Below the pieces are notes generated by a model. It was given only the letters and a program-made list of their open reading frames with translations, made no database searches and was not told the DNA's origin. A stretch of 64,000 nt of DNA from Mugil cephalus. Its lineage: Eukaryota > Chordata > Actinopteri > Mugiliformes > Mugilidae. The DNA is taken from contig NC_061781.1 of assembly GCF_022458985.1 (NCBI RefSeq), positions 23,354,001-23,418,000 on the forward strand, read 5' to 3'. Shown here in pieces: positions 4,699-48,500 of the stretch. A program made the position numbers and the translations under genes. Within the stretch, counting starts at the first letter, position 1. Every line of letters starts with the position of its first letter.

Positions 4699-6716
4699 CT
4701 AAATGCCACTATCTGACCCAGCATCCACAAAAAAAGATCATTAATTATAATTACAAGCCATAATAAGAACACTGACAAAAGCTGGAGAAAAGATCATAAT
4801 ATCTACTGGATGAAAATGCATCAAGTTTTAAATATAAATTTTGTCAGAAGTCAAGGAAATGCATTTCAGACCTTTGTTGTCTGCATCGCTGCAATGTGTA
4901 GTGATTGTTTCAGGCTATAGTCTGGGCTACAGAGACGCCGTAGCCAACGTTATAGATCTGAATATATGTGTTACCTTTTGTCTGCAAATTCTCCATAATA
5001 GAATTCACTGGTGTAGGAATGTCTTGTGTTTCTCTGTAGAAGAAGAGACACTCATGAAGCAACAAAAACATGCCCCTGCAACTCCATGTGTTGCCAGTAG
5101 AGGTCGATATAGACAAACATGTGCATTGTTTACATTACGTGGGGGTTTATTTGCTCTACCTTTTGGGCTTATCAACGTTCTTCTGGAACAAAGCCATAGT
5201 GAAGTCGTTGTTCAGACACATTGTGTTCTCCGCGATGCCAAAGTCGTGCATCTGAGGCGTCTGCAGCTCGTCGTCGTCCATGCGCAGGGCCCATTTGGGC
5301 GTCATGGCCATGGGCGGCACCGGCGTGTTGAGCGCAGGGTGCGGGAGGCTCATCTCAGGCATGGGGGGCGCCTCGGGACACCAGTCAGCCCCACCGGCCA
5401 GCGCCCGCTTCAGCTGGATGTCCGACAGGCCGAAGTCGGAGGGCTGCGGGGTTTGCAGGACATCACCGACGGGCTGCTCTGGTTTTGGAGGTGATGAGAA
5501 GTGTCCATCCTGGTCCTCGTCCTCCTCCTGGCATCCGTCTTCGTCTTCCTCCGAGTTAGTTTCACCGTCAGCGTCCGTCTCCTGACCGTTCGTCTCTGTA
5601 TACGTCAGTAGATGATGTTGGTGAGACAATCTGCAGCCGTAAACATCGTTATGATAATAACGGCTACTTACTGTTTGGCCGCTGGGTGTTGCCAGGAGCT
5701 TGGTAGCCATATTTCTCCCAGTGTCTCCTCACTGTCTGGATGTCCTTAGAGACCTTCATCTCCATCGCTCTACAGGACTTAATGAAATCGCTCGCCTCGT
5801 TCACCCGAGTTTTCTGCTGAGACAACTGATCCTGGATCTGCCCCTGAATATTTACAGACCATAGTTCATCAGTATTCTGCTTTCAGACCTATGGATTTAT
5901 AGTGTACGTGGTTCTTCATATTGCTTAATAAAAGACTTATTAAGGTATCACATGTCATAACTGTTACACTTTAATATCTATTTAATTGTTGATGATTAAT
6001 TGTCAATGATTTGTAGTTGAGGCCACATGTCATGTTCCATATCTTTGAGTTGTAAACAACATTAATTTATGTTTCAACTCACCGCATGTTGTTTATTAAG
6101 AAGATAACTAGTGATATTTCAGTAAAACTGCCGTGTATGAGCATTTTAATGTTGATAAAACCTTTTAAAATCTCATATTTGTAGTTATAGTTTTAATGAA
6201 GCAGGATTTTTTTATGCAGAACTCCTACTTGTATTTTAGTACTTTTAATTTGGTACTTCTGCTAAAGTAACGCATTTTCTGTCAGAAACCTAATGACTCG
6301 CGTAACTTGAACATACAGAGTACTGTAATATTTACCGTATTCAAGATAAATTATAGATGGGAATGTGATAAATAAAGCTGTAACGTTTCATAATGTCGCT
6401 GCCTTAAAATGACAGATAAATGAATGGAGTCTGGTGTACCTTCAGGTTCCCGATGTCCGCGTTCAGTTCATGATATCCTCTCATTGCTCTCGCTGTGGTT
6501 TCTGAAATAAGAAGAAACACATTAATACAAGCTGACTAGACTACTTTGAAGAATGAGGGCTACAGGTGTGTGTTTGTCGGTGTGTTTCTCACCGCTGTCA
6601 GCTTCTTTGTGGCGGTTTTCAAAGGTGTGTTGAAGTTTGGCAGTTTCTGACTCAAGAGTCGCTGCCAGTTTTCTCAGTTTGGAGAAGAACTGTGTTGTTG
6701 GGTGACTCGGGTCCAT
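449..6716 (-). CDS. ska3: Spindle and kinetochore-associated protein 3 (Ska3), 11 coding exons, complete
   Basis: Subunit of the Ska complex, which binds microtubules and Ndc80 and stabilises kinetochore-microtubule attachment in mitosis. Coding exons in transcript order: 6593-6716, 6440-6501, 5672-5843, 5160-5595, 4975-5033, 2944-3143, 2652-2852, 2375-2563, 1987-2054, 1733-1890, 449-606. They sum to 1827 nt, 608 aa plus stop, with phase preserved throughout. Residues 1 to about 115 form the helical core that pairs with Ska1/Ska2; the start MDPSHPTTQFFSKLRKLAA resembles vertebrate Ska3. Exon 4 carries the family motifs LQTPQPSDFGL, PKWALRMDDDELQTPQ and HDFGIAENTMCLN. The middle is acidic and rich in TP/SP sites suited to Cdk1. 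The last two exons encode a conserved-looking C-terminal segment of about 100 aa (SLPGYLRQMTL, APVYILCLTELQRLK). Human SKA3 is about 412 aa, so this protein is longer. The 59-nt exon at 4975-5033 is required by phase. The last acceptor could also lie 18 nt inside, at 588. Confidence 0.93.
1040..1240 (+). mobile_element. LINE-like 3' end fragment in the last ska3 intron
   Basis: GTGACTTGAAAGGCGCTTCT followed by TAAATAAAATTAACTATTATT matches the usual fish LINE tail (GAAAGGCGCTTTATAAATAAA type). The rest of the 607-1732 intron shows no other feature. Confidence 0.5.
3618..4470. mobile_element. hAT-like non-autonomous element in ska3 intron 5
   Basis: Starts TCTTCAACAGGGGGTCTGAG followed by GTGGGGTCTGTGG, a typical fish hAT-like terminus. 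Internal blocks recur at 19490-19620 (reverse) and 27345-27560 (internally deleted). No transposase frame. Confidence 0.55.
4658..4695. repeat. (TA)n microsatellite
   Basis: About 18 TA units in ska3 intron 5. Confidence 0.95.
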
Positions 6717-14400: not shown

Positions 14401-17148
14401 GGGGGGGACGTGTTCATGCAGAGCTTCATTTAAGGACTAATTTGCATAAAAACTCTTATATAAAAGCCTTATGGTTTCACTGAGGCGCAAAGAACGGCTA
14501 AATTTGCCCCCGCGGCGCGTTCAAAGTAAGTGGAATAAAGCACTAAACGTGATAAATGTTACATTAATCTGAGCACGTCAGGAGGTTTTAGAGTCTGACC
14601 TCGTTAAAGTGAAGCCGCCGCACCTTCGTTTCCTTCAACCTTGAAGAACTTATCATGTGTAAACACGTCCGAGGTGATAAGTTGACGTATGATGACATTG
14701 TTCCTGCTCCTGCTGCAGAAAGAACATGTGAGCGACTTCTTTTTATATTTATATGTGAATGTCACCAGAGGAGCTTTGGATTCTTGGTCTGTGTCCATCT
14801 GCTGGGACTCTCCTCAGATTAAGAGCCTCGCGTCACGATGGGCCTCAGCACTTTTAGGATTTTTAAGGTCAACATGCACCAAAAGAAATAAATAAATAAT
14901 AAATAAATCCCTTCCTCCTAAGGTCAAGTCAATAAATGTGTGAAAAAGTGTCATTTTAACATGAACTGCATCTGTTTTATTAGATGAAATCAGCAATCGA
15001 GGCTCGATCGTGCATTAAATACATAATATAAATATTATTCCTAACTTTTTATTCATTTATTATTATTGTTTTTATGTCTTTTAGATGTTGTTTTCTTCAT
15101 TTTATTTTTATTTTTCTTGTTTCTTATTATTATACTGACAGGATAAGAAGGACAAGAATATTATTATATATTATTGATCTTTTAAGAAGGGATAAAATAA
15201 ATCTAAACTTCCTCCCTCTCCTGTTCAGACATGTGGAGGATGGAATATTTAGTTTATGTTTATTTTATTTGTGATTATTTTGTTTGCTTTCTTACATATT
15301 CAAACTAAACTGAACTAATCAGAGAAGCTGAGTTTTGAATATCTTAAAATAAATGGGAGGTTCATTTATGTCATTGACCGTTTGCTCCTAAAAAGTCTCT
15401 TTTCATCTCTTTGAAATGCAAATTGTGTTGAATTAATCCCAAATTTGAGGCAGTTTTATTTACGTTACTTTTATGTTGTGCTTGTTTCACTCTGAATATT
15501 TGAGAAGGAAAACAAACAAGAAGTTTAACTACCAGATCCTATAACATAGACTATTAAGAGTCATCAGTAAAACAAGTCATCTTTAACCTCCTGAGACCCA
15601 ACGTCCTCATGTGTGGACGACGTTAAGTTTAAGGTTTTAGTCCATTTAGTCCTGTTGTCCTCATATGGGGACACTTTTGTCTGCCATGTACTGGTAGCGA
15701 AGGGTCAAAACACTTGTTTATTCATTCTTAGTGACTTTTCTAGTTTTATATGACATGAAAATTTAACAAATTCACAAATACTCATTCGAGGACGTTGGGA
15801 TTTCATCGTATCCAATTCTAGGTTTTGCATTAAAATAAACTGTTGCACATTGGTGACTTAAAGTGCAATAATCCCTGTGTCCCTATAATATTTTTCAGAA
15901 ACAAAGATGATGCTTATTTTGTTTATACTTCTTAGATCCAATTAATCCCAAATACCGAAAGATCTTAATCTTACTTTTAAGACATTAATTAATTAATATT
16001 CCAAACAAATGTTTAGGTCTCAGTAGGTTACAGTGAGGAGCGGTCGCTGACTGTTTATACTACTGACAAACCCAACGTGACGTCACCCGTTGGATTTTGA
16101 ACCTCAAAAATGAAGCCTAAAGTGGGCGGAGCCTGCGGTCGCCATGTTGGATCTTTACTCCGCCCACACACAGATATTCCAAGTCTTAATTCCCGCCCAA
16201 CCAACTCTCCGCTACCCGTTAGCTCAGGCTAACCTTTGTACCAATAAGTTGTCCTTTTACATTTCCACAAAATGTCCACAATGAGTAAATTTTGCTGTTT
16301 CGTTACTTCTATTACTATCATTATTGTTATTATAGGGATTTTAAGGTAGAACTACTGTTTTACCATAGTTTTAGAGCTCACACTTCCTCTCACTCTCTCA
16401 TCAGGTGAACTTCGTCCTGGGCACCGGCCTCCTTTGCCTCTTCACTCAGGCTTCTCTGACCGGCAGAGACCAGGCTCTGCTGATGAAGAGCTGGTCCGAC
16501 CGCATGGGCGCCCTCTACAGGAAGATGAAGAACACCGGCGGACGCTGCTTGGGATACTTCCTGGAGCAGGCGGAAGAGGACGTACGCAAAGAGCTGCACG
16601 ACGCCGTGCAGAACCGCGCACCTCCAGAGGAGGCGGCGTCGAGCATCCTGAAGACCCTGGAGAAGAACTACGACTGGCTGCGCTGGGCGGTGATGCTCCA
16701 TCCTGCTGTGGGAGTCATGGAGGAGGAGAAGGAGGAGAAGGAGGAGGAGACGCAGGACGAAAAGGAAGCTCCGCCGACAGAACAGCAGCCCAACAATTTC
16801 CTCTCCGTGGTGTCTGAAGCTCCGATCCCCCACGTGGTGGTTTGCTACCGCGAGACGCCGACGTCACTGGACAAAAGCCGCATCCACCAGCTCATCGTGG
16901 ACCTGGAGTGGAAGATCCCGAATCCGCCGCCTGAAGTGTACGCCTCCATCGAGGAGGACCCGGGCAGGGCGCGCCGGTACCTGGCCTCCCGCATGCTGAG
17001 GAAGCTGCAGGAGGGGCTGGGAGCCGGCGTGGCCATTCACGTGGTGCCGGGCAGGATGGAGATGAAGTGCAACTTCCCTCCGGCCTCCTACTACCTCTAC
17101 GAGTACACGCACCGTCTGGCCTCGGGCACCGTGTGTGTGTTCGGATGA
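8437..17148 (+). CDS. Rapunzel-like family protein, 4 exons, 396 aa
   Basis: Coding exons 8437-8489, 8571-8760, 12148-12351, 16405-17148; phases 2, 0, 0 join cleanly to 396 aa. The start AACCATGG is a good Kozak context and sits downstream of a TATA box. The order of conserved blocks resembles teleost rapunzel (rpz) proteins: a helical N-terminal half; LTALYNRLMGVSAL followed by REFCVKVNFVLGTGLLCLF (around residues 144-162), matching the family's cysteine-containing hydrophobic segment; then LEKNYDWLRWAV (around 235-246). A Glu/Lys-rich stretch (about 255-270) precedes a C-terminal domain ending at Gly396. Zebrafish rapunzel is linked to bone and fin overgrowth when mutant; the biochemical role is unknown. 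Family assignment is from memory of the pattern and is less certain than for the other genes. The exon 3 donor is the unusual GTTGGT. Introns 2 and 3 carry degenerate tandem repeats. Confidence 0.75.
8877..9023 (+). repeat. Copy 1 of an intronic duplication (about 147 bp)
   Basis: Shares a long near-identical stretch (AAACAAACATAAAGAGTCAC onward) with 10881-11028 in the same intron of the rapunzel-like gene. The second copy has an extra block of about 15 nt. It belongs to the GACCACAAAGAGACACAAAA low-complexity family nearby. Confidence 0.75.
9325..9560. mobile_element. hAT-type element end fragment
   Basis: Contains GAGGTGTCAAACATAAGGCCC followed by a GGGGGCCAG block, a terminal pattern common to vertebrate hAT-derived non-autonomous elements. 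No transposase reading frame. Confidence 0.5.
10380..11030. repeat. Degenerate tandem-repeat tract (ACAAAGAGACACAAAATGA-like) in intron 2
   Basis: Purine-rich variants of ACAAAATGACCACAAAGAGA recur through the interval with many substitutions. Its complement gives long Phe/Leu/Cys-rich open frames that are artefacts of composition. The tract ends with the second copy of the 8877-9023 duplication. Confidence 0.8.
11140..11335 (+). mobile_element. Non-LTR retrotransposon 3' end fragment
   Basis: Ends GAGTAGGAGCTGCTGTAATG ... AAGTAATTCTGATTCTGATT, a tail typical of fish LINE 3' ends, and closely matches 31190-31350. No coding region remains. Confidence 0.55.
11955..12022. mobile_element. DNA transposon end fragment beside a G run
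   Basis: A run of about 13 G is followed by CTTTAAAACCTAGTGACGCC and CCTGG, a terminus commonly seen in fish hAT-like elements. It lies about 125 nt upstream of exon 3 of the rapunzel-like gene. Confidence 0.4.
13130..14165. repeat. Degenerate tandem-repeat tract in intron 3 of the rapunzel-like gene
   Basis: About 1 kb of imperfect units resembling ACCACAAAGAGACACAAAAT, the same family as the intron 2 tract. Overlapping antisense open frames are a by-product. Confidence 0.85.
15583..16030 (+). mobile_element. MITE with TAACCTCCTGAGACC inverted ends (family A), full copy
   Basis: Begins TTAACCTCCTGAGACCC and ends GGTCTCAGTAGGTTA, which is an imperfect inverted repeat of the start. The interior holds GTCCTCATATGGGGAC. 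Related copies lie at 36331-36720 and 63235-63561, with a fragment at 58870-58955. No coding capacity. Confidence 0.75.
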
Positions 17149-18414: not shown

Positions 18415-21400
18415 TTACACGAGTTCAGCGTCAGAGTTGAGCTGGACCATTTTCTCAAAGTCCTTCTTGACATCTGGGAAGCCCCGGAGCGCCTCCTGAA
18501 AGTCCTTGTAGGAAAGAGAGAAGCACTGGCAGTCGGTCAGCGCCTTCACCGTGGCCAGATGTTTGCCTTTGGTCAGGACACACGTCTCTGCGCGCACAGA
18601 AGGAACCACAAGGCCGCGGTTAATGAGCGACTGAACCCTAATGACGACGGGATGAGATCTGACAATTAATCCTAAATTAAACAACCAGACTTTTTTTTTT
18701 TATTTGGTGGAAGCCTGCTTAGCTCTAAACGCTGCAGAGCTCTGCTGCCAAAAAAAGATTAGGACCTGTTCCCACTTAACGAAGAATTAAATAAATCAAA
18801 CTGGAAACTGTGCTCTTTTATAAATCCTTCTTGTTCACATATAAACAGGAACTTGCAGCTGTATCCTAGGACTGTTTATATGATTAGAAAGGTTTATAGC
18901 ACGACTAAATATTCCTCTTAAGCCAACAGAATGGTGGGGAAGTCAGTAATGATATAAAAGTTCATTCTTCATTCCTTTACTACTTCTAGCTTTGCAAAAA
19001 CTTCCCTCATACACACAAATAGCAATGTCATTTCCTTGAAAACACTATCAGAGCGCGTCATCTGCTGAGCGAGCCGTCGCTCACTTTCACAGAGAAAGTG
19101 GCTCCAATGATGCAACTGCTTTTAGGGAAACAGAGAATTGACAGGTTTCTAAATTGACCTTGGCAAGGAAAGAGAACGTGGCACCTAATGGACTCTACTC
19201 CATGCAATATGCAACCTTTGGCCTCAGCGCTGTCTTTCTCTGAACAGGTTTGATCAGAACTTCCACCAAAACATAATAATTGCCGTGAAAACTGAAACAA
19301 CTGTAAGAGAAATTATGTCTGGAAGCAAAAATAAAGGTGGACAAAAACATTTGCAGGGTAAGAAAACTGTTTTTGAGAGAGTGCATCCATTTATCATTAG
19401 GTACGAGAAAGCAAATGCATTCTTGTAAAGGTTATAAATTATGTTTATGCTGCTAATATTGCAGGATTTCACCTGAGGACTGATGAGGCTCTCGGCCAAT
19501 AGCACGGAAACTGACCGAGTCAGCATCTAATATGCAGCCTTGTGATTGGCTCAGCAGCCATAGGGGCGGGGCTTACTGTGTAGAGGAGGCTTAGATTGAC
19601 AGGTCTAGTGTGGCGCTATTATTTTTGGTAGTTTAGTTTCATCTATTTATTGGCCATTTAATTCTACTTTTATCTGTTCCTATCGTATGTGTGTGTTGTG
19701 TAATAACGTACAAGCTGTGCAAACCAGTTTCCTCTGGTGGGATTAATAAAGTTGTCTGAATCTTCATGCAAACAAAAGTTTAACAGAACAGTTATATTCA
19801 AATATTTTAACTAGTATAACTAATAAACTGTGATTTAATTTGATGTAATTTGAGTGAACTGGCTGTTTAATAATAAAATTTCCCATCTGATTCTAGTTAA
19901 AGGAATTAAGTTATTAAAGACTGACACAAACTAAAAACAGGAAGTGAACAGACTTTTCATAAACATTATATATTTCCCACATTCGTCGTAAATCCCAACC
20001 CACCTCCAAAGAAGTCTCCGTCACACAGCTCCCTGTCGTAGGACTCTGTCTCCAGCAGAACTTGTCCGTGGTCGATGAAGAACATGCGGTTTCCCGGGAC
20101 GTTTTGTCGGATTATGGCGTCTCCTTCCTGGAAAACCTCGTACTCCAGTTTGGGGAGGATGGCGTTGATGAAGTTCTCGTCTCTGTTCTGAAACATCGGT
20201 ACCTTCCTCAGCAGGCGGCTGCACATCACCATCAGGATTTGCTGTGAAAAAGTAAAAACAAAGGCAGAAAATATGTCGTCTGCTTTGGATTATGGACCGT
20301 TCAACAAAACGATAGCACGCATCGGAAAAAAATCTGATACGAGGGATTAAAAAACGTTTCCCAGTTGTACCTCTTTGAGTGCTGAAGACACTGTGTCCAT
20401 GACGTCCTTCTCGTCAAACCACTTCCCTCCGTAGCGAGCCTGATAATAGCTGTTGATGCGAAGGCACAGCTCTGGAGGGAGCTTCATGAAGGCCATGTAG
20501 TGCTCCAAACGGCTCATCTGCGGAGATATTTTTAAGGCACGGCTCACTAGCCCCCACACATAATTCATGACGGATAGCTTTACGCCGCGAGTGTCTTCCT
20601 GCAGGTGCATATTTAATCGTGTTGCATGAATGCATATTTTCACAGCTTTACTCTGTGGACAAGAAAGGTGGAAAATAGTGAAGCAGGGAACTAATACGGG
20701 GTGAATTAATGTGCTTCTCAAAACTATTTACACGTTATTAAAATGTGATTTTTTTTGTAAACGAATATGTGTGATGGTCATGAAATAAAAAATAACATTA
20801 TGTTCAGAAAAGGTTTTCAAGTTGAAACTCCAAAAATGTGTCGATATTCAGCGTATAAACTGAAAACACACAAAAATACATCTTTCACCGGTGAGATATT
20901 TACATTTCTTAAACCTGTAGAGTTTCTTGAAGACGTTTCGCCGCTCATGGAGGACAATGGTCCTACGTAAGTTACGTTAACTTTTAAGGCCACTTCCCCT
21001 TATGGGGTGAAAACATTGTGTATCGTTCTTCATACGATTTAAAAGACAAAACACTGAGATTTTACCTTCTCCCATCAAGGTATAAAAAACTAAGACATGT
21101 TTGGCTTCAGGCCATAAAGGTCTGGACACAGATGTAAAAGCTGTGGGACCCTGATGTTAGTCGATATGTGAACGTGTGCAGCAAACACTTAATCACTTTA
21201 AGTTATGATGCTAACGTTGATCCTGAACTTAAATGACAGTAATAAAAAACTAAGACATGTTTGGCTTCAGGCCATTAAAGGGCTATAATGTTTAAAATTC
21301 AAATTTCATTTTAAAAAGTCAAAGTAAATGTTGATGCTGAACTTAAATGACAGTAATAAAAAAGTAAGAAATTGTTTGTTTGGCTTCAGGCCATAAAAGG

Positions 21401-24400
21401 TCTGAACACAGATGTAAAAGCTGTGGGACCCTGATCTTAGTCGATATGTGAACGTGTGCAGCAAACACTTAATCACAGTTATTAGTTATAATGTTTAAAA
21501 TTCAAATTTCATTTTAAAAAGTCAAATAAGTGAATGTTGATGCTGAACTTAAATGACAGTACGTTACGTTCTGTGAAGCATTTTTTTTTAATAAAACGTT
21601 TGGCTAAGCTTCATGTTGTATTTATACCATGATTAATTATTTTAACATTATAGAAAGATTATGAATTAATGACAGTTGTCACACGTTACCCGGAGATTCA
21701 GTGAGGGAAGAGTAAATGTCTCGTATGACACATATTTTTTTAGTTTTTCTACTTAACGTCCCCGTTCGTCACTCGGCAACGACATTATTTATGTGTCTCC
21801 CTGACCAGCTTTCCAGTCGACAAATGCTAGCAACACAGAATAAACACTGAATACGGGTGATATTTGGGTTTACCACCATTAACGGTCACTAACGGCGACG
21901 CCACTAGAGACGCAATGCATGATGGGATATCTACCACCCATTGAGAGATCGGATTTTCACTACATTTTGCAACGCTTTATGGGAAATTTTGAGTTCCCTA
22001 TGTAGGGTATAGAATTTGATCACAAAGGTTTCTGACACCGCTACAGAATGGTGTAACCCCCGTATAAGGCCTTATGTAGGTGTTGGGGGGGCAAGTGTCA
22101 CCCCCGACGTCTCACCTTGCTCTTGTACTCCTTGGCCGCTGGGTCCACGTTGGCGATCATGGTCGTAGCGTTGGCCACAAGGACGGTGTACATGAGGCAG
22201 CCGGACACCATGCTGACCATGACAATCCACATTTCAACATAATCTACAGGAAGAAAATCAAACAAAAAGTGTGTTTAGTGCGAAATAAACTGGGAGTTTA
22301 TATTAGACACTTTTTTTTTTTAAAAAGCTGCCTCACTTGTTGGAGCGTCCATGGAGCCGTAAGAGAGAGCGATCATCTGGGACAGGGCCCGGAAAACTCC
22401 CCAGGAGTATTTCACAATGACTGTGGAGTTCTGGAAGAAAAGGTTTGGGACCATCTATAGGTGACAACTTTCTACACTTTAACCCTCCTATTATTTATCT
22501 ATGGGGTCAATTTATCTATTTTTATTACCACATAAGTAAAAAAGAGAATAATGAACAGATCAATAAAATAACTGAAAGCATACAGTACATAAAGAAGAGA
22601 AACAAATGTTACTTTGAAGTAGGAATGTGCAGGAGGAACCAAAAAAACCCTTCTAACCCTAAATGACAAAGATTCATCATAAACAAGAAATGAACTGACT
22701 CAAACTAATTCAAAGAAAAGCTGAGGAAGAAAAATAAGTCATATTTATAAACGATGAATGAAGGGATTTAGAGATATTAGAGATGATAAAATTAAATATG
22801 AAGTGTAGGAACATACCTAAAAGATAGTGTCTCCTGTCTCCATTTATCTCCATTTTACTAAAATATGTTAGATTCATGTTATTGTGTATTTAAAGAAATT
22901 TACATTTGTGTAGGAAAATTGTGGGAGGAAATTTGAAAAATTTCTCTTTCCTATTTAAGGTCTATCAGTGAGATTTTATGGTGATCTGCATATTTGTCCA
23001 GAGTTGTGTAACAGGTTTTCTGGATGGAAATGTGAGGTGGGGTGGAGGGATTTTATTTTATTTAAAGAGTTATTTAGTTAGTCAACAAATACACATAAAG
23101 TACCAGACACATAAAGTTGCTGTTTATGATTGAATTACTGTGGTCAAATTGACACCAAGGATTAAAAGTGATAGAAAATGTCAAGGTAATAGGAGATTTA
23201 AGACAAAGTGCATTCTTCATTTAGAAAACGTCGTCTTTACCATGAGGTTTTCCTTGCGGACCCAGCAGTCGGTGGGAAACTCCTCCAGCATCGGGACGAA
23301 GTACTGGATGCAGCCGTTCCAGTGACACAGCAAAAAAATCATCATGAACAGAGACAAGACGCGGAAGAACAGCCGGACGACCTCCAGGTTTGCATTTGAC
23401 ACCTGTCAGGAACACACGACATGTAAATGTAGACGAGTCCGATAATAATAGAGCGGCACGCTGGTGTTAACCCCGGTCTGATCCCAGCCCTTAAACAATT
23501 CACAAAAGCTCCCCATGAATCTGAATAGTTTATTTATTGTGCCCCTAACACGAGGCATCGAATGACCACATCACTACAAGAAGGACACCTCAAGAAGAAA
23601 CCAAGAAACAGGAGCAGTCAGATGATCTCACAGGGTGGAAGCGAGCCAACCGTTTAGTCAGATTATCTAAAACTGAAAGTGAGTGAATCTCAGACTGCAG
23701 AGAAATAACGTCTGCACACAGCTGATGTACAGCTGGAGCAGGACACGGATCGGTAAACTGTGACGGACGTACGTGATAGTTCATTTCAGCTCGTCCTTGT
23801 TTCTAGATCTCGATTTAATTTGTGAGTACAAGTTAGAAAGGTAGACCCAGGTTGTAGCAAAGCAAACAATGTTCCCGATCTAATGCTAAATAACACAATA
23901 AAACAGAAATAAAACATCAAACGTCTTCCGAGCTCCAGTGATGCACATTAATACTCATTCAAGCTCAATAAATACAGTTATTTGCTCAAAAATCTGCATT
24001 AACTCTGAATCTGGATATTTTTAAGAAATATAGATGAATAAAGTCTAAGTATTTGCAGTACATGACAGCAACATCCAGTCAATCCAGTGTCATTCTTTCT
24101 TAGCCTGGTCCCTGTACAAACCACTCCAAAAAAAAATAAATAAAAGGTTTCCAGGTTTTCCAGGAAGCACCACTTCACCTAAAATCATTTATTTTAGCCT
24201 CGAGTAAACACCAGTTCCAGAAAGCATACATCATGCACTATCAAGGTCAGAGCTGAGATATCATATTTCATAATAACATCTACTGTTGCATAAGAAAAAA
24301 AATTAATAATAATCGAGCTACGACCAGCTCTTATTTTACAAATGACATTGACCAAAGTCAGATTTGTCACTGGAGCCGGCGGCGTGGTAAAAAGGTTTCA

Positions 24401-27400
24401 GGGTGAAGGCTGATGGAAAATTCACTGCTTACTTTTTCCACTTCGTTGAAGAACCTGACCAGCCTGGACACTCGAGCGAGACGGATCAAGCTGAGGATCC
24501 GCACGAACATCAGTATCCTCATCATCTTGTTGGTCTTGGAGGGGTTGTCTTCGTTGTGGTAGTGTAAGCCCTGGGATTGTAAATTAAACACATTATCCCC
24601 ATTATTTTACTGGTTTATCGTTATTATCTTACATTTATTGCTCAATTAATTGCTTTTTTTCTTAACCTATTATTAGTACATCAAAACCAGGTGGCACAAA
24701 AACAGTTTCTTCCCCCGGGCTGTTGCTGAAGAACATCCTCACAATTTATATCTGATTCTGCTCTTTATTCTTTCTCTAAATTCTGGAAATCTAATTTATG
24801 TTGTACAGCTTTGTATAGTTTGCACTTTTATTTTCAAGCTAATTGAAACGCTTTGTACGGTTTCCTATTTTTTATTTTTTTAACGATTTTATTTTTCATG
24901 TTTATTTAAGTGCTTTGTCTTGTACCATCGAGCAAAGTGGCCGCGGTATCCAAGTGACGTCACAGTTAGCTTAAGTCTCCATGGTTACGGCCACTGAGTG
25001 GCGAAAAAGTGACAGTTGAACGTGGAGATTAGCAGCATTATCTTTAATCATAGGCTTTAATAGCGTCTAAACTGTAAAATTAATTTACATTATAATTCTT
25101 AACATTATTTCTAAGCTATTGTAAGCACAGAAACAGCGTTTGGTAATTTTAATTTGAGCTGCGATTTTTGATGACGTCACCTTAAGTTACTTATGAAGTT
25201 ACGTCCTGGAGGCTGTCAGATAAGTTTGTAGATGTGTGTAGTTACGGCCGACTGTAACTACTTCAGTCTCAACAATAAATAACAATAAAAAAATAAACTT
25301 AATATTTGTGATCACTCCTCGTCTTCCTTTTAACGCTACAGGATTGTATGGCTACCGCTACTTCTAAAGCTCTTAGCGTTAGCATCTTTTATTTAGCTAC
25401 GTTTATCATACCGGAAATGACCTAAAACTAACTTAAACTAACTGAAAATCCGCTTTTCCAAATCCTTACTAGTTTGTTCGGATCATTGTCGAGTCCAGTG
25501 GTCTTTAATTTCATCTGATAATCCACATTTTCCCCGGTCTTGCTGTATTTACTGCTACATTCAGCTAAATTTGGGCCACTCCGGGGGGCGTGGCTCCAGG
25601 CGGAAGTGACGTCATTGATACCCTGTACGAAGCTGATTCTGATTATAGTCAATAAAACAACAAAAACAAAACGCCTATTTATGAAATATCCAAAGTAAAC
25701 TGAAAGCTGTTTATGACCATTTTGGATCTCATTCATGGTCTCGGTCAAATTTCCATCATAAAAGTCAGAATCACTCAAGTTGCCTCAATATCAAATTATA
25801 TTGTTCTTGCTTAATCAAAGTTGGCACACGGTTAAAACACAACTCCTGTGCAGAGCTCTGCTTGGTTCAAAAAGCCGCTGCTGTCCCATATACGACTCAA
25901 CAGAATGTTAAAGGGTTAATAAATTATATTGGCTCTAAAGTTGCCTCAAAGCTTAAAGTGATGTGTGACTGATTGTTTTCTACAGAGCAGCGCACACTGC
26001 TTGTGTTTTATTGTGTTTTATTACGGTCTGTTCATTATTACCGCAAACAGCAGAATGTAGCCGATTGGGAAAGCTGCTATAACGTCCGGTATGAACCATG
26101 TCCTCAGGTAACTGACTCGGATCCGCTTGATATCCAGAATAGCTTCCTGCAAAAGAGAGGAGCGCAGCAGATTGAGCAGATGGATGAATAGGCTGCGCAG
26201 CATGTGCCATGATCAGATGTATAATTTAATACTTGAACTCAACCAATAGTTTGGGGAGTTAGTCCAAAATTAAAGCAGACGGTAATGTCGGAGAGGATGA
26301 GCGGGGGGGGCGTGCAGAGAAACGTTCAGCTGACAGTGAGACTGAAATGTTGCCGCAGCATGAATATTTAAAAAACAGGCACAAACGTACTGAGAGTGGA
26401 TGAGAGAAAAACCAGATGTTGGCTGAGAGAAAACTCTGCACATGGGCCATTTGTGATTGGTAAGATAAGAGCATGAGCCGATAAAAACAAACAGGATATA
26501 GTTTTCATTATACATAATTGGAAATGTTACACTACCTATCCGCGCTATCGTAATCCCTGTTACAGAATCAAACAGTAGGTGCCAATTTAGTCTGTGCCCA
26601 GAGGCCGAGGGGGGGGAGGCTGTTAATCTAGTCTTCCATGTACTGAGATTACAGATGGGGCAGAGATGGATTGTGTGTGCTTGTTTGGGATTATAGTCGT
26701 CCAGATTGCGTCTGAAAATAGAGTCGAGAGTAGAGCCACTTTCACCTCTGCGTCCTCCGTTATGATGCCCATGCGGAAATTCAGAGCCACGTCGATCAGG
26801 AACAGCGTGTCTGAAAACACGTTGAAGCCTTCCCACGCCAGACCGCTGTTCCCGTCCAGGAACGCGATCTCCATGGGAATCCCGATCAGGTTCAGGAAGG
26901 TGATGGCCATCATGCACATGATGTAGTAACTCCTAGAGGGGAAAACAGACCCAAAAAATATAAATAAACACATGTGACTTTTGAGCACATACTCAGATCT
27001 CGTAGTGGAAAGCGTCGGCTTATCTGCCAGCCCGGTAAGGCAAGCTGATTTATGCACACTAAATACTCTGATATTGTTAACTGCACATCTCCTCAGTCAG
27101 GGTTCAATTGCCAGGCTCAAATAACTCTGCTCTCTGATCCCAATTGTTTCATTCCCTCTCTGTTTTCAGCCCATCTGATCACCTTACAGACCAATAATAA
27201 GAAACGCCCATTCCTCAAATAAGTCATTTGATCCGTCTGTTTTTTATCCTTGGAGTCCTAACGACCCCAAATCACTTCTAATTGGGCTTTTAAATGCGCT
27301 TTGGATTAATTATGCTAAATATCAATTATCATCTGAATAAATTAGAGGGTACTGCAGGGGCGGTCGCAAAATCTTTGGTTGATTAGACATTTTGTATATA

Positions 27401-28192
27401 TTTTTTAATTTTCTCCCACAAATTTAAATTTCTTCAACTACATATTAACACGAATCCAACATATTTTAGAAAAGGGACTGTTTAAAATTGAATGAAAATT
27501 TATGATAATAATGTACATTTTTATATAAGCCGAGTATAATATAGAACAAATGTAGTTGGGGGTCGTTCGCTGGAAAAACATTGAAGACATAAAAGGACTG
27601 GATAAAGAAAACTTCTTCAAGTGGAAACAAAAAACAAAACAAAACACGAGGAAGAGATTTTCTTTTACTTCCATATTACAAAAACATATGAATTAATAAT
27701 TTTAAATAATTAATTAGTTTAAAGTGATTTATAGAGCAAGTTTACACACAAGGTGACTTCACTTCCTCATTTTCCCTAAATCACCTAAAAAAATAATCAG
27801 CAAATCTGTGAATTATTTCGGGCACAATTTACCTCACTGATTATTTTTCCACTTGCAGACAAATCAAACCACTTTACTGACTGTGACAACGAAAACTAAA
27901 GCAACAGCCGCGATCCTACGAGAAACAGTCACGGAAGCAGCCCAGAGAAACAAACGGTGTGAGTGATGTGCGGGACTGGCCTGAATCTATCAGCTGTTAT
28001 TAAATACCTCATGGGGCTGAAAGGGTGAATGACAAAGACTCCGCTCTGCAGCTGCCGGATGCATTCCTTCTCCACGGCCACCTCGCTGCCGTACACGTAC
28101 AGGGACTGTCTGTTCAGCTGCGGGAGGAGCAGGGCTCTCCATCCACAGGTGGCTGTGGTGCATCCCACCGTGGGACCTTTTAGTTTCTCCAT
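18415..28192 (-). CDS. hcnl1: HCN-like channel HCNL1 (probable hyperpolarisation-activated proton channel), 10 exons, 518 aa
   Basis: Exons in transcript order: 28008-28192, 26746-26932, 26042-26146, 24433-24570, 23241-23402, 22337-22430, 22116-22243, 20371-20517, 20004-20241, 18415-18587; 1557 nt, all phases agree. The fold is that of an HCN channel: HCN N-domain (RALLLPQLNRQSLYVYGSEV), six membrane segments with S1 from about 62 (YYIMCMMAITFLNLIGIP), S4 at 177-198, S5 with LLCHWNGCIQYF, pore near 260-290, C-linker with HYMAFMKLPPEL, and a CNBD (383-518). It departs from pacemaker HCNs in three places. Met180 breaks the S4 arginine series, the filter is SYG (282-284) not GYG, and the CNBD phosphate arginine is His471 with a short C-helix. 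Published zebrafish HCNL1 conducts protons through the voltage sensor in sperm, has a silent pore and ignores cyclic nucleotides. Function here is inferred from those shared traits. Start ATG (GCCATGG) is preceded in frame by 48 open codons. Confidence 0.9.
19490..19620. mobile_element. Reverse-oriented fragment of the hAT-like element at 3618
   Basis: GGGGCGGGGCTTACTGTGTA and AGATTGACAGGTCTAGTGTG are the reverse complement, with a few changes, of sequence at 3850-3910. It lies in the intron before the last hcnl1 exon. Confidence 0.6.
21080..21565. repeat. Tandem duplications in hcnl1 intron 7
   Basis: ACATGTTTGGCTTCAGGCCA recurs at about 21098 and 21258, with a diverged third copy near 21380. 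The linked blocks GATGTAAAAGCTGTGGGACC and AACTTAAATGACAGTA also recur, in two or three mosaic copies. Open frames here are short and not conserved-looking. Confidence 0.8.
24660..24935 (+). mobile_element. LINE 3' region fragment
   Basis: AGGTGGCACAAAAACAGTTTC, then TTCCCCCGGGCTGTTGCTGA and a TTTATTT-rich tail resemble the end of a fish non-LTR retrotransposon. No intact frame. It directly precedes the family C MITE. Confidence 0.45.
24944..25623 (+). mobile_element. MITE family C, copy 1 (inverted ends contain TGACGTCA)
   Basis: Left end GGTATCCAAGTGACGTCAC and right end GTGACGTCATTGATACCC are imperfect inverted repeats. The body (GGTTACGGCCACTGAGTGG, GGAGATTAGCAGCATTA) matches copy 2 at 52173-52820 over nearly its whole length. 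It lies in the hcnl1 intron between exons 3 and 4. Confidence 0.8.
25700..25925 (-). repeat. Dispersed repeat family D, copy 1
   Basis: Reverse complement of 33360-33570: CTTGGTTCAAAAAGCCGCTG and AAAAGTCAGAATCACTCAAG match the other copy. One edge ends TTAAAGGGTTAAT. Class unknown. Confidence 0.6.
27345..27560. mobile_element. Internally deleted copy of the 3618 hAT-like element
   Basis: AAAATCTTTGGTTGATTAGA, ATCCAACATATTTTAGAAAA and the AATAATGTACATTT block align in order with 3680-4310, with the middle missing. It lies in hcnl1 intron 1. Confidence 0.6.
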
Positions 28193-38004: not shown

Positions 38005-38528
38005 GATCAGGCGTAACATTATGACCACCTTCCTAATATAGTGTAGGTCTCCCTTGGTGCATCCAAAACAGTTGTGTCTCATCAGAGAATGGACATGGTT
38101 CTTCTGAGGGGGGGTCCCTGTGGTGTCTGGAAACAGGATGTTGTTAGTGGGGGGTCTTTGGGTCCTATGGGTTGAGGGGAGGGGCCTCTCTCTGTGGATC
38201 ATCCCACAGACACTTGATCAGTTTGGGATCCAGTGAATTTTGAGGCCGGGGCTCCGTTGGGAGGTTAATCAACCCAGAGAGAGCGGGTTAACTCCAGAAA
38301 GAGAGGTCATTTAAACTGGGAGACGGTTACCATGGTAACTGAGACTGGTCATTATTGCCATGTGGTCGGGGTACCAGACCAGGACCTGGTCTAGGTACAC
38401 GTCTAAGTAACATCCACATGATTAAATACCAGGTCCTAAAGTTTCCCAGAAGAACATTAAATTGTCACAAGATGGTTTTTAAATGTTATTTTCTTCTCCT
38501 GTCGGTGGTTTTAATGTTGTGGCTGATC
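38005..38528 (+). mobile_element. MITE family B, longest copy (524 bp)
   Basis: GATCAGGCGTAACATTATGA to GTGGTTTTAATGTTGTGGCT, then GATC. It retains an internal block (38240-38400) absent from the 29535 copy. Confidence 0.8.
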
Positions 38529-39598: not shown

Positions 39599-42500
39599 AT
39601 GAGCGCGGAAAACACGACTCTGTTGGACAGTTTGTTCTTCCCCCCTCTCTGCGATGGCTGGACCAACAACACAGAAGGAGCAATCTACCACTTGGGCCAC
39701 ACCTTCCTGTTCCTGGGCTACATGGGGGGCAGCGGGGCCTACGGGTGCCTCTTCATCTTCGGCTTCCTGTCGCCGGCCTTCCTCTGCCTCACGCTGTGGG
39801 GCTGGCTGACCATGTGCGGCCTGGACGTCTTCACCTGGAACCTGCTCCTGCTGCTGGCCTGCCTGCTCCAGATCTGCCACCTGCTCTACCGGCTGCACCA
39901 GGAGGGCATTCGCAGCGAGGAGCTGACCTCGCTGTACCAGGCCGTCTACCTGCCGCTGGGCGTGCCCGTCCACGTGTTCAAGGAGATCGCCAGGGCCTTC
40001 GAGAACAAGGTGGTGGAGCTGAAGGCGGGACAGACGTACGCCGTGGAGGGCAAGACGCCCATCGACCAGCTCTCCTTTCTGCTGTCTGGAAGGTGGGAAG
40101 TGTGTGTGCACGTCTAGAAACCTACCACCAACCGTCTCTAGAGCCACAAACTACAGTAAAAGAAGTAGTAGGAAAGCTTTGAATGCGTTTCTTAAACATG
40201 CAATAACTAGCAACAAGCTATAAACACAATCACATGAAAGTACTTGTAATATTCACTCTTCTTTAAGCTCTGTTTTTGGTCTCCTCCGCTCCCGGATCAC
40301 ATGCGTTTGGACCTCAAGTCACATTCAGCTGTTTGGTGCAGCTGTTGCAGCAGAAAGGGCACCAATGAGAGTCTCACGAGAAAGAAACAAACCGCTAAAT
40401 TTGTGGCGTTAAGAACCAAAACAGTTAGCTTAAAGATGCCACAACGTTTGGTGGAGGGCAAGACGCCCATCGACCAGCTCTCCTTTCTGCTGTCTGGAAG
40501 GTGGGAAGTGTGTGTGCACGTCTAGAAACCTACCACCAACCGTCTCTAGAGCCACAAACTACAGTAAAAGAAGTAGCAGTAGTAGGAAATCAAAGCTTTG
40601 AACACGTTTCTTAAACGTGCAATAACTAGCAACAAGCTATAAACACAATCACATGAAAGTACTTGTAATATTCACCCTTCTTTAAGCTCTGTTTTTGGTC
40701 TCCTCCGCTCCCGGATCACATGCATTTGGACTTGAAGTCACATTCAGCTGTTTGGTGCAGCTGTTGCAGCCGAAAGGGCACCAATGAGAGTCTCACGAGA
40801 ATGAAGCAAACCGCTAAATTTGTGGCGTTAAGAACCAAAACATTTAGCTTAAAGATGCTGCGACGTTCGGTTGAGTTGAGGGCAAGACGCCCATGGACCA
40901 GCTCTCCTTTCTGAAACATACCCCCACCAGCTGTCTCTACAACCAACACACTACAGTAAAAGGAGCAGCAGGAAAAGTTTGAAAATGTTTCTTAAACATG
41001 CAGTAACTAGCAACAAGCTATAAATACGGCGTCTCATATTACAACACGCTCGGCACGATCACTCAGTGCGTTTACGTGCACAGATTAATGGAGCTATGCT
41101 CTGAATTCAACTTTCTGAATGTGGTTCTCGTCCCAGTTTACGTATGACGGAAAAAAACATGTCCTCCTCCTCCTCCTCCACACTAGGTGGTGATATGTGT
41201 CTTGTCAGCGGGTTAATACGGCCCCCGGTCAGGTTGACCTATTACGTCATATGGTAAACTAGAGTCGTTCATGCAGCAGACCGGGCATTTCAAACAACAA
41301 CCAGATGGATAATACTTCAGTTTTTTAAATATTGTACTTAATGTGTCGCTACTTATGGTGCAGATAAGATGGCGCTATCCCTCAGGTGGTTCTTCTACTG
41401 GCTCTGTTTACCTTCTTCTTCTGTGACTGACTTTCTTGGATGTTTTTGTTCCAGTTAAAACTCTGATTAAGGCACATACATGGCGAAGAGAATTTATTAG
41501 TCAGATAAGGAGAACTCTGATTTTAGTCGGAGTAACGTGTTTACATGCGCTTAACTTGTCCAGTTAAAGTCGGATTAAGACAATAATTTGTTTTTTTTCA
41601 CATACACGAAACGAACTGATTTACTGTTGAAAGTATCTCTAATAGTCACTCTTTTTTAAGCTCTGTTTTTGGTCTCCTCCGCTCCTGGATCACATGCATT
41701 TGTATCTTTAACTGCAGATTTGTCTTTCAGATAATCATATTTGGTCGTTTGGTGCAGCTGTTGCAGCAGAAAGGGCAAAACCCAAAACAATTAGCTTAAA
41801 GATGCTACGACGGTCAGTTGAGGTCAATCTGGGAACCCATTGGCTATCTTTTGATGATTTAGCTTCTGCTAATGTTGCAGGGCTTCCAGTGTAGTCTTAT
41901 TGTTCAGAGTCTGCTTAGCAACTTGAGACAGGAGAACAGATTTACAGGACGTTGCTCGCGGCATTTACTTGATGTTTTGACCTCAAAAGGTGATTTGCGT
42001 GGAAGCAACTCAGACTACACACAGAAACTAAAAAAAGGCTTTGGCGCTCGGTTTTATTTATTCCCGACAATATCTGAAGATGTGTGTTTATACAGATTAA
42101 ACCGAGAGAGACCGTTGTCAGGGAGTTTGTTTCTATAAGGACACGCTTCTCACTAACATAATCATTGGATTCATTGTTAACATAAATAAGCTGATTGCAC
42201 TTGCTTTGATGACAAGTAGAAAATGTAAAAAGTGCAGAAGTATCATCAACAAAAGTTCTCAGTATCTTGACAGAAACTTCGAGTTTAAGATGTTGCATTT
42301 TTTGCACTTAAGTGTTGAAAGCAGACGTACTTATTTTGCAATGTGCCACCTTTCAACACATGCAATCAGGTCAAGGCTTTGTAGGCTTTGTTTTCTGTGT
42401 GAGATCCTCATCCACAACGTCTAAAAGCTACTTCAGTAGTTTGTGTTACAGTATAGGGGCTTGTAGATACTATTTTCTCTGCTTTCTTTATCTGCGAGGA

Positions 42501-45500: not shown

Positions 45501-48500
45501 GAGATTTTTGTCCACTTTGTCAATCAAACAATCAAATGTGTTGTTACAGGATCACTGGTGGAATAGGTTAACTAGCCCTACGTCATGTTCGGGAAATCGC
45601 ACTGAGGAATCTTGATGTGAACTGCGCATGTGTTTATATACAGCTTCTATAGCGACATGGCACTTTTGTATCGATTATGGCAGCGCACTGGTAAAACCGT
45701 GAGATCTGTGAGCTGCTCTGCATCTGTGGAGAAGAAGAGATTCACTGCACTTAAATGTGTAATGTTGACATTGTCAACACAATGACATATGAGAGGGCGG
45801 AAAAATACAGGCATGCAGCTCTCACAGCGGGAGGTCAGATCTGGAAAATCCCGGGTCAACCCAGTATTTTTGATGTGAAAGGGATGAACAGCCAGTCTAG
45901 TCTAAAAAGCTGCCATCAGACCTCCAGCTAGTTGCAAAAGCACAAAAACTAGGGTCACAGACACTGACGGTCCAACAGCAAATAACCGACTCTCAGCTTG
46001 ACTGTCAAGGCCCATTTCAGTTCTTCTTCTTAAACTCCCTTTTAGATTACCATGACCTGGATGACCGAGAACCTTCATAGCCACCAAAGATTCCTAAGAC
46101 CCAATTATACTATATAACTATCATTAATAACAAAGAAGAGCATCCATTCTTACACATGAGGCACTTTCTACAAAATTCTACCTCAATCAGACTCTTATCC
46201 TGAGTCTGTGTTGACCTGATCTCTCAAACAAACTCATAAATGCTTGGCTATACACTGCTACTAGAGGTCAAAGACTCCTAAGATCTCATTTAATGCACTG
46301 ATTAAAGTTTTTCGTTCACGCTCCACAGGTGACCCTGACAGCAGAAGAAGACTCCCGCTACGTCTCATGGCGTCGCCGCCGCCTCTACATGCTGATCTCT
46401 AAGGAACGCTACATCGCACGCATCTTCTCCGTCATGCTGGGATACGACATCGCCGAGAAGCTCTACAACCTCAACAACAAGCTCTACGTGAAGAGCGGCG
46501 TGCTGCTGGACATCCGCCTGCCGAGCCTCTACCACGTGCTGGCCCCCTCCTCGCAGAGCAGCGAGGGCGGCAGCGGTAGCGATGGCGGCATGCCCAGGGA
46601 GCAACAAACTGAACCGGTGCCGGCCTACCAGTCGTCTGACCCAGCTCAATCTCAACAGGGACCAAGGAAGACCGCGCTGGACGAACCCCACGCCCCCCAG
46701 CATGACCGTTCCCACCCTTGGGCATCAGACCCGGAGCTGCCCTCTGGTGAGGACTCCACCAGCCTGGTCCTGGAGGACTTTACTGATGTGGCGGGCTCCT
46801 TAATGGATTATGGCAGTGAGAGGGATTATTTGAGGTAGAGGGGCAGGGTTCTGGAGCTAACACACTGGGTCACCACTTAAGCTACATGTAAGTACCTCAC
46901 CCGGGTGGAGAGTCGCATGGGGGTGGTGTGTATGCATGTGCAAGGATTGCGGTGCACAGATCTTACTAACCTTGGCCTTGTGGTGCAATGAAGGGCTGAA
47001 TTAATATTTTTCCAACATTCATTTACAGATTTATGACAATATTGCAAATGTATGAGTAGAACATTACTACAGCGACCAGGCATAACATTATGACCACCTT
47101 CCTAAGGGAGCGTGCAGGTCTCTCTTGTGCCTCCAGAACAGCTGTGATTCATCAGAGAATGGCTTTGAATTTGAATTTGGGCTTTGGAGATGGAGTTTCC
47201 TCATCCCACAGATACTTGATCAGTTTGGGATCTAGTGAATTTGGAGGCGAGGTCAACACCTTGTCCTGTTCTTCATGTTTTTTTTATTTTTTTGTGTCTG
47301 TGTCAGGCTGCATCCTGCTTGGGATGGCTGTTGCCATCAAGGAGTGTCATTTTTATGGGGTGGGGGTGTTTGATCTGGTCTTTGTGGATGGTAACAAGTA
47401 ACATCCACACGAATGATTGCCAGGTCCAAAATATGTTTGGTGTATGTACAGTCCTTAGTAACTTTTCTGTTCTACCTTAATTTTAGTATCCCTTGTCACC
47501 CTTTCAGAGGAATTTCTGTTATTTTTAGGTATGATTTTTAATGCATGGTGTTTAACTTGGCTCCATCACTACATGAAAGAACACATGACTACACAGCTAG
47601 TTTGCAATAGTCAAATTCAAGATGGTCAAAGTTCTTTCTTGCAATTAGAAATAGGACAAACTATCTCAGCATTATCTGCTTGTTCTGAAACTTCAAACTA
47701 AGAATTGCTCTTTATTATTATTTGTGTAAACCTCTACAATCCAGCGACAAATAGGCAAGTTTTTACCTTTATTTATACATGCCAAATGGACTTTGTTCTT
47801 AAATAACTGTGGATTGTCTTACGTGTAATTAATTGGACCAAGGTTTTTGTAGACTTTTGTAGATGTGGTCAAATTTTATGTACCTTTTCTGTTTTTGGCT
47901 CTTATTTATCTTCTCACGGTGTAGCTGCTTGCTTTTTAAAAAATAAAAACACGTTTCATTGGGAGAATGACTTCAGGCTGCAAAAACTGTTTTTTTAGCG
48001 CAGATATTGACATTGAATGACCTTTTCATCTTTATCTGGATTATTATCCTGATTTCCAACCATACTTTAAATTAGAATTCCCTCGTTGCCAGCTGCTCAG
48101 CATTAGTGTTTGTTTTGTCTCCACAGCTCTCCAGCTTACAGTCGTATTTGGTACAGTAGCAGTAAAAGTTAAATTTGTCCTCATTAAAAAAAAAACAAAA
48201 AACAGCTTATCTGTAAATTAACAGAGTGTTGGCTTATATTTGTTTCAGACTGTTTTTGGCTAAATTTTCCCCCATGTTCAGCGAATTGTGTCGTTTCTGT
48301 ATTGCAACTGATAGAAGAGCAGTGGTGATGTCAGCCGGGGCAGCAGCTGTGTTCTTATCTGAGGAGGATTAGAGCTTGTAAATTTAGGGAATGTCGAAAA
48401 AACTCAGTGCCATGCTAATCCAGTGTGACCACTGTTTGGGTTTCTGTGAACTCATCTGATCCCACCCGACCTCGTCCCTGGTTCCTGGTCCCTTCGTGCC

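Follow-up and report, generated by a model that had tools for sequence, protein, structure and literature searches.

A probable HCNL1-type gene in Mugil cephalus that has the S4 methionine of the proton channel

Does the HCN-like gene in this stretch of Mugil cephalus DNA (the window, 64,000 nucleotides in all) encode a pacemaker channel that conducts cations, or a channel of the HCNL1 type, which would carry protons through its voltage sensor, as the earlier note had proposed from a methionine in S4? The original report of zebrafish HCNL1 is said to be that of Wobig et al. 2020. According to a passage of PMC11700363, two voltage-gated proton channels have been described and HCNL1 is one; it is also treated in part of PMC9603624. 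The observation behind the proposal is true and its reading appears correct in outline: the sequence points to a gene of the HCNL1 type that has the proton-channel methionine, and proton conduction would be expected by extension from zebrafish.

Gene structure and family placement

The predicted gene occupies 28192..18415 of the minus strand and is composed of ten exons, which form an intact frame of 518 amino acids with nine GT-AG introns and a TAA end. The model is built from the DNA, where gene structure, residues and alignment are read directly, and translation is taken to start at the first ATG in the open part of exon 1. Exon 1 (28008..28192, aa 1-62) contains the start codon and the HCN domain, exon 2 (26746..26932, aa 62-124) encodes S1 and S2, and exon 3 (26042..26146, aa 125-159) encodes S3. 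The S3-S4 loop and S4 belong to exon 4 (24433..24570, aa 160-205), while exon 5 (23241..23402, aa 206-259) encodes the S4-S5 linker, S5 and the start of the turret. The pore helix and the filter are in exon 6 (22337..22430, aa 260-291), S6 and the start of the C-linker in exon 7 (22116..22243, aa 291-333), and more of the C-linker in exon 8 (20371..20517, aa 334-382). Exon 9 (20004..20241, aa 383-462) has the end of the C-linker and the start of the cyclic nucleotide-binding domain (CNBD), which is completed in exon 10 (18415..18587, aa 462-518 and the stop).

Three PFAM models match above their cut-offs, namely Ion_trans_N (PF08412, aa 18-61), Ion_trans (PF00520, aa 64-323) and cNMP_binding (PF00027, aa 418-495), and the layout of the HCN superfamily is complete in the predicted protein, with a full-length HCN domain, S1 to S6, C-linker and CNBD. 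The intact frame and the nine GT-AG introns speak against a pseudogene, and this reading is rejected. Searches of the 64-kb window by tblastn, with the protein itself at E <= 0.01 and with HCN1, HCN3 and HCN4 at E <= 0.001, matched only exons of this gene and found no second HCN-like copy. Vertebrate HCN genes have exons of 424, 162, 219, 147 and 241 nucleotides, and the corresponding lengths here are 430 (exons 2, 3 and 4 together), 162 (exon 5), 222 (exons 6 and 7), 147 (exon 8) and 238 (exon 9), the gaps being alignment differences of 2, 0, 1, 0 and 1 residues. These lengths suggest intron sites in common with vertebrate HCN genes and three additional introns.

Imperfect direct repeats, recognized by eye at 21080-21560 (TTTGGCTTCAGGCCAT and its neighbours), lie in the intron that separates exon 7 from exon 8. 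An Rfam scan of the 64-kb window gave no matches at the gathering score. Outside this gene, the plus strand carries two exons of a POPDC gene with a Popeye domain (Pfam PF04831), at 39599-40117 (E 7.1e-38) and at 46329 to about 46480 (E 1.5e-5, just under the family cut-off); POPDC proteins bind cAMP. A palindrome resembling the RFX X-box, GTTACCATGGTAAC, is located at 38326-38339, which is 1.3 kb ahead of the POPDC exon and far from the HCNL1-like gene, and is the only window match to the consensus used, a count made without a chance control. Two other reading frames have no Pfam match at 0.01: one of 184 aa on the minus strand (5156-5710), which presumably resembles SKA3, and one of 247 aa on the plus strand (16405-17148), likely a gene's main exon.

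A search of PDB sequences gave 114 matches at 1e-10, of which the best 60 were listed. The closest are HCN4 (6gyn, E = 6.6e-135) and HCN1 (5u6o, E = 2.4e-131), matched from residue 18 or 19 to 508, and zebrafish HCNL1 is not among these 60 of the 114. Among the matches listed, CNG channels reach 6.9e-36 at best and KCNH channels 3.2e-25, against 6.6e-135 for HCN, and both families are rejected; a CNG placement, which the earlier note had named among the outcomes contrary to its reading, is not what was found. Over aa 18-508 the identity is 195/488 to HCN1, 190/477 to HCN3 and 201/487 to HCN4, or about 40%. HCN1 and HCN4 are identical at 426 of 488 positions, so the protein is far outside the range of mutual similarity of HCN1-4. 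It shares with the pacemaker channels HCN1-4 the HCN domain, the six segments, the S4 pattern with serine at S264 and the CNBD, and differs from them by M180 in place of R258, K174 in place of R252, ALSYG and one further residue in place of CIGYG, histidine in place of R591, a diverged S4-S5 region and a short C-terminus.

A CNBD tree of seven rows (HCN1-4, sea urchin Ih, CNGA1 and the protein itself, with zebrafish hcnl1 outside the set) has long branches and none of its four inner branches is starred. The protein is therefore placed outside HCN1-4 from its divergence and from traits shared with HCNL1, not from a supported tree, and this placement is best taken as probable. The HCNL1-type assignment stands as regards the HCN family, the S4 methionine at the published position, the filter and the cAMP-binding arginine, and its phylogenetic side is left without support by that tree.

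The S4 ladder and the register with zebrafish HCNL1

Exon 4 has the stop-free translation GLHYHNEDNPSKTNKMMRILMFVRILSLIRLARVSRLVRFFNEVEK on the minus strand, with AG and GT directly at the two ends of 24433..24570. Its S4 ladder reads K174, R177, M180, R183, S186, R189, R192, R195 and R198, and the series from R177 to R198 described earlier is confirmed by the translation and the splice sites. In the alignment these positions correspond to R252, R255, R258, K261, S264, R267, R270, R273 and R276 of human HCN1. HCN1 S4 positions are named R-2, R-1, R0, K1 and R3 to R6 in a figure legend, which gives R258 as R0. M180 is in the column of R258, which is arginine in the three HCNs compared (HCN1, HCN3 and HCN4). 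The alignment with these three confirms membership of the HCN family and a methionine in place of a classic HCN arginine, but this arginine is the third and not the second, as the earlier note had it, since R252 and R255 of HCN1 precede R258; M180 is at the second arginine position only when the count begins at R177.

The importance of this residue is known from zebrafish. One of two reviews (PMC10651576 or PMC13095418) describes the methionine at the third S4 position as essential and its change to arginine as abolishing the proton current, and both reviews report that M169 changed to arginine suppresses this current. M169 is called “evolutionarily conserved” in one of them (PMC10651576 or PMC13095418), so the conserved methionine is already known and is no news. 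The review that names M169 gives R248 as its HCN1 counterpart (PMC10651576 or PMC13095418), which is at odds with human HCN1 numbering; the alignment made here gives R258, and the “third position” of the other review agrees with R258.

The comparison with zebrafish HCNL1 was made through its published residues H43, H50, H78, H82, K163, M169 and C240, without the zebrafish sequence itself; all of these except M169 are named in the zinc work of Kuwabara et al. 2024 (PMC11700363), and M169 is named in a review. Only one of 380 offsets tried, +11, puts K163, M169 and C240 on K174, M180 and C251 (the last encoded by exon 5). Lysine and methionine are the informative residues of this register: K174 is arginine in HCN1, HCN3 and HCN4, and C251 is also cysteine in them. 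The protein thus resembles zebrafish HCNL1 in a methionine at R0 with a lysine six residues upstream and a cysteine 71 residues downstream. It also resembles it, as far as passages of the reviews describe the zebrafish traits, in an altered filter and in the loss of the cAMP-binding arginine. Four traits of HCNL1 are consequently present: methionine for the third S4 arginine (R0), M180 at HCN1 R258; a non-HCN filter, which could be compared with that of zebrafish by description only; loss of the essential cyclic-nucleotide-binding arginine, HCN2 R591 being H471; and agreement with K163, M169 and C240, of which the cysteine is common to HCNs.

Pore, coupling region and cyclic nucleotide-binding domain

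The filter encoded by exon 6 reads ALSYGSM, in which ALSYG takes the place of CIGYG of HCN channels and is followed by one residue more than in HCN1, HCN3 and HCN4. HCN W281, invariant in these three, is also changed. In the CNBD, R591, T592, R632, R635, I636 and K638 of HCN2 are replaced by H, L, N, A, E and V (H471, N512, A515 and E516 among these, with H471 and N512 in exon 10), and E582 is kept as E462. The protein ends six residues beyond the position of R632, and its C-helix is short. R635, I636 and K638 are presumably C-helix contacts with a cAMP-related role. E582, R591 and R632 are counted among the cAMP-binding residues of HCN2 in a single source passage. Two canonical traits of HCN1-4 are thus absent, the CIGYG filter and the cAMP-contact residues R591 and R632. 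The pore of zebrafish HCNL1 is reported to be non-conducting in passages of PMC11700363 and of a review (PMC10651576 or PMC13095418), and its cAMP-binding arginine to be missing in a passage of a review (PMC10651576 or PMC13095418). The ALSYG filter and the losses at R591, R632, R635 and I636 match these reports.

An ordinary HCN pacemaker, cAMP-gated and conducting Na and K, in which the S4 methionine arose by chance, would agree with HCN4 and HCN1 as the top database matches and with the full-length HCN domain, but CIGYG, the cAMP-binding R591, W281 and the S4-S5 linker are all changed although they are invariant in HCN1, HCN3 and HCN4, and this reading is scarcely credible.

Conservation was counted over invariant residues, meaning those that are the same in HCN1, HCN3 and HCN4, a set that does not extend to full-length HCN2 or invertebrate HCNs. 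In the sensor, 7/18 are kept in S1, 14/18 in S2, 10/17 in S3 and 15/29 in S4. The S4-S5 linker with the start of S5 keeps only 2 of 19 and is the least conserved region, followed along the protein by S5 (12/22), turret (8/18), pore helix and filter (8/17), S6 (10/28), C-linker (26/63) and CNBD (41/81). Erosion of the region that couples sensor and pore is as expected if the sensor need no longer open the pore.

GIRK2 G156 is, we assume, the first glycine of its GYG. The weaver filter mutant G156S of GIRK2 is described in part of a source as losing K+ selectivity yet conducting, and the first glycine of the filter triplet here is a serine, S282. The channel could accordingly be a dual-path one, with protons through the sensor and a poorly selective cation leak through an SYG pore. 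Against this reading, which is unlikely, are the extra residue after SYG, the change of C-I to A-L, the divergence of the S4-S5 region and S6 counted above, and the non-conducting pore reported in the passages on zebrafish.

In the voltage sensor, charge transfer in HCN1 involves F186, D189 and D225, and the predicted protein retains them as F106 and D109 (exon 2) and D145 (exon 3). HCN1 D146 in S1 and D233 in S3 are lost, the latter being G153 in exon 3, and an acidic residue, E83, is gained at the outer S1 where HCN1 has G163; E83 is a candidate proton-path residue. The identity of only about 40% and the short C-helix would also suit a divergent HCNL paralogue that no longer conducts and either works as a sensor of voltage or as a partner subunit, or is used in another tissue, but the frame is intact, the S4 ladder is ordered and F106, D109 and D145 are kept, so voltage sensing is apparently maintained and such a paralogue is improbable.

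Zinc histidines and a possible proton path

The predicted protein has histidines only at positions 56, 162, 164, 232, 339, 440 and 471, and inspection of the whole of it found none in aa 57-161. The extracellular H78 and H82 of zebrafish HCNL1 are without counterpart here, and H56 can match just one of H43 and H50, the spacing favouring H43. If H56 corresponds to H43, the H50 zinc position, seven residues further on, falls on Ser63, where S1 ends on the inner side, and the span from S1 to S4 is about two residues shorter than in zebrafish. H50 is then probably without counterpart, and with H78 and H82 missing as well the zinc sensitivity may differ from that of zebrafish. In place of the zebrafish zinc-site histidines, the S3-S4 loop has H162 and H164, which form a His-Tyr-His sequence at 24550-24570 (aa 160-166). 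Hv1 has a zinc-binding histidine between S3 and S4, according to a passage of PMC11700363, and by analogy an extracellular zinc site of a different kind, formed by H162 and H164, is possible. The histidines H50, H78 and H82 are known as a zinc site in zebrafish only and are not known to define the family; they are taken as a species-level trait and were not used against membership. A proton channel that lacks the intracellular zinc brake of zebrafish and has a weaver-like SYG filter would open two leaks on hyperpolarization, one for protons in the four sensors and one for cations in the central pore, and this combination is very unlikely.

The gene is quite probably an orthologue or close co-orthologue of HCNL1, whose product would conduct protons inward through the voltage sensor on hyperpolarization, with a silent pore and no cAMP binding as probable traits; tetrameric assembly, like this gating, would be carried over from zebrafish work. 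Upon hyperpolarization S4 would slide inward along F106, D109 and D145 of the charge-transfer centre, and methionine in place of arginine at R0 would leave the voltage-sensing domain unsealed, so that protons could enter each subunit by a path of its own. Its changed filter and weakened coupling would probably leave the central pore silent, as zebrafish work suggests, and the CNBD would probably not bind cAMP. A point against this HCNL1 reading is that conservation of the CNBD is not low. In HCN1 the displacement of S4 amounts to about two turns, after which the constriction of the hyperpolarized state is found below K261 and S264, according to a passage of a review (PMC10651576 or PMC13095418); R258, and thus M180, would then be above it. 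Either S4 might cover a longer distance here than in HCN1, so that M180 lines the constriction, or a leak might form because the methionine underfills the outer pathway. Hv1 (HVCN1) resembles this scheme in passing protons through the voltage-sensing domain, a likeness drawn by analogy, and differs from it as a voltage-sensor-only dimer opened by depolarization, as described in a passage of PMC11700363.

In zebrafish, proton inflow through HCNL1 makes the sperm more acidic and, it is believed, shuts CNGK and restrains the hyperpolarization, according to a passage of a review (PMC10651576 or PMC13095418), and by analogy the same step may take place in sperm of Mugil cephalus. What is new here is that zinc histidines are missing, that the filter has SYG, that contacts of the C-helix are lost and that the S4-S5 region is eroded; otherwise the finding is an extension of a known family. 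The HCNL1 recordings described in the parts of the literature consulted concern the zebrafish protein, and a second natural sequence that has this methionine but differs in the points just named offers a ready comparison, in which what all active relatives share would be needed for proton flow and what differs among them would not. If Mugil cephalus spawns outside fresh water, the idea of HCNL1 as a fresh-water adaptation would become testable.
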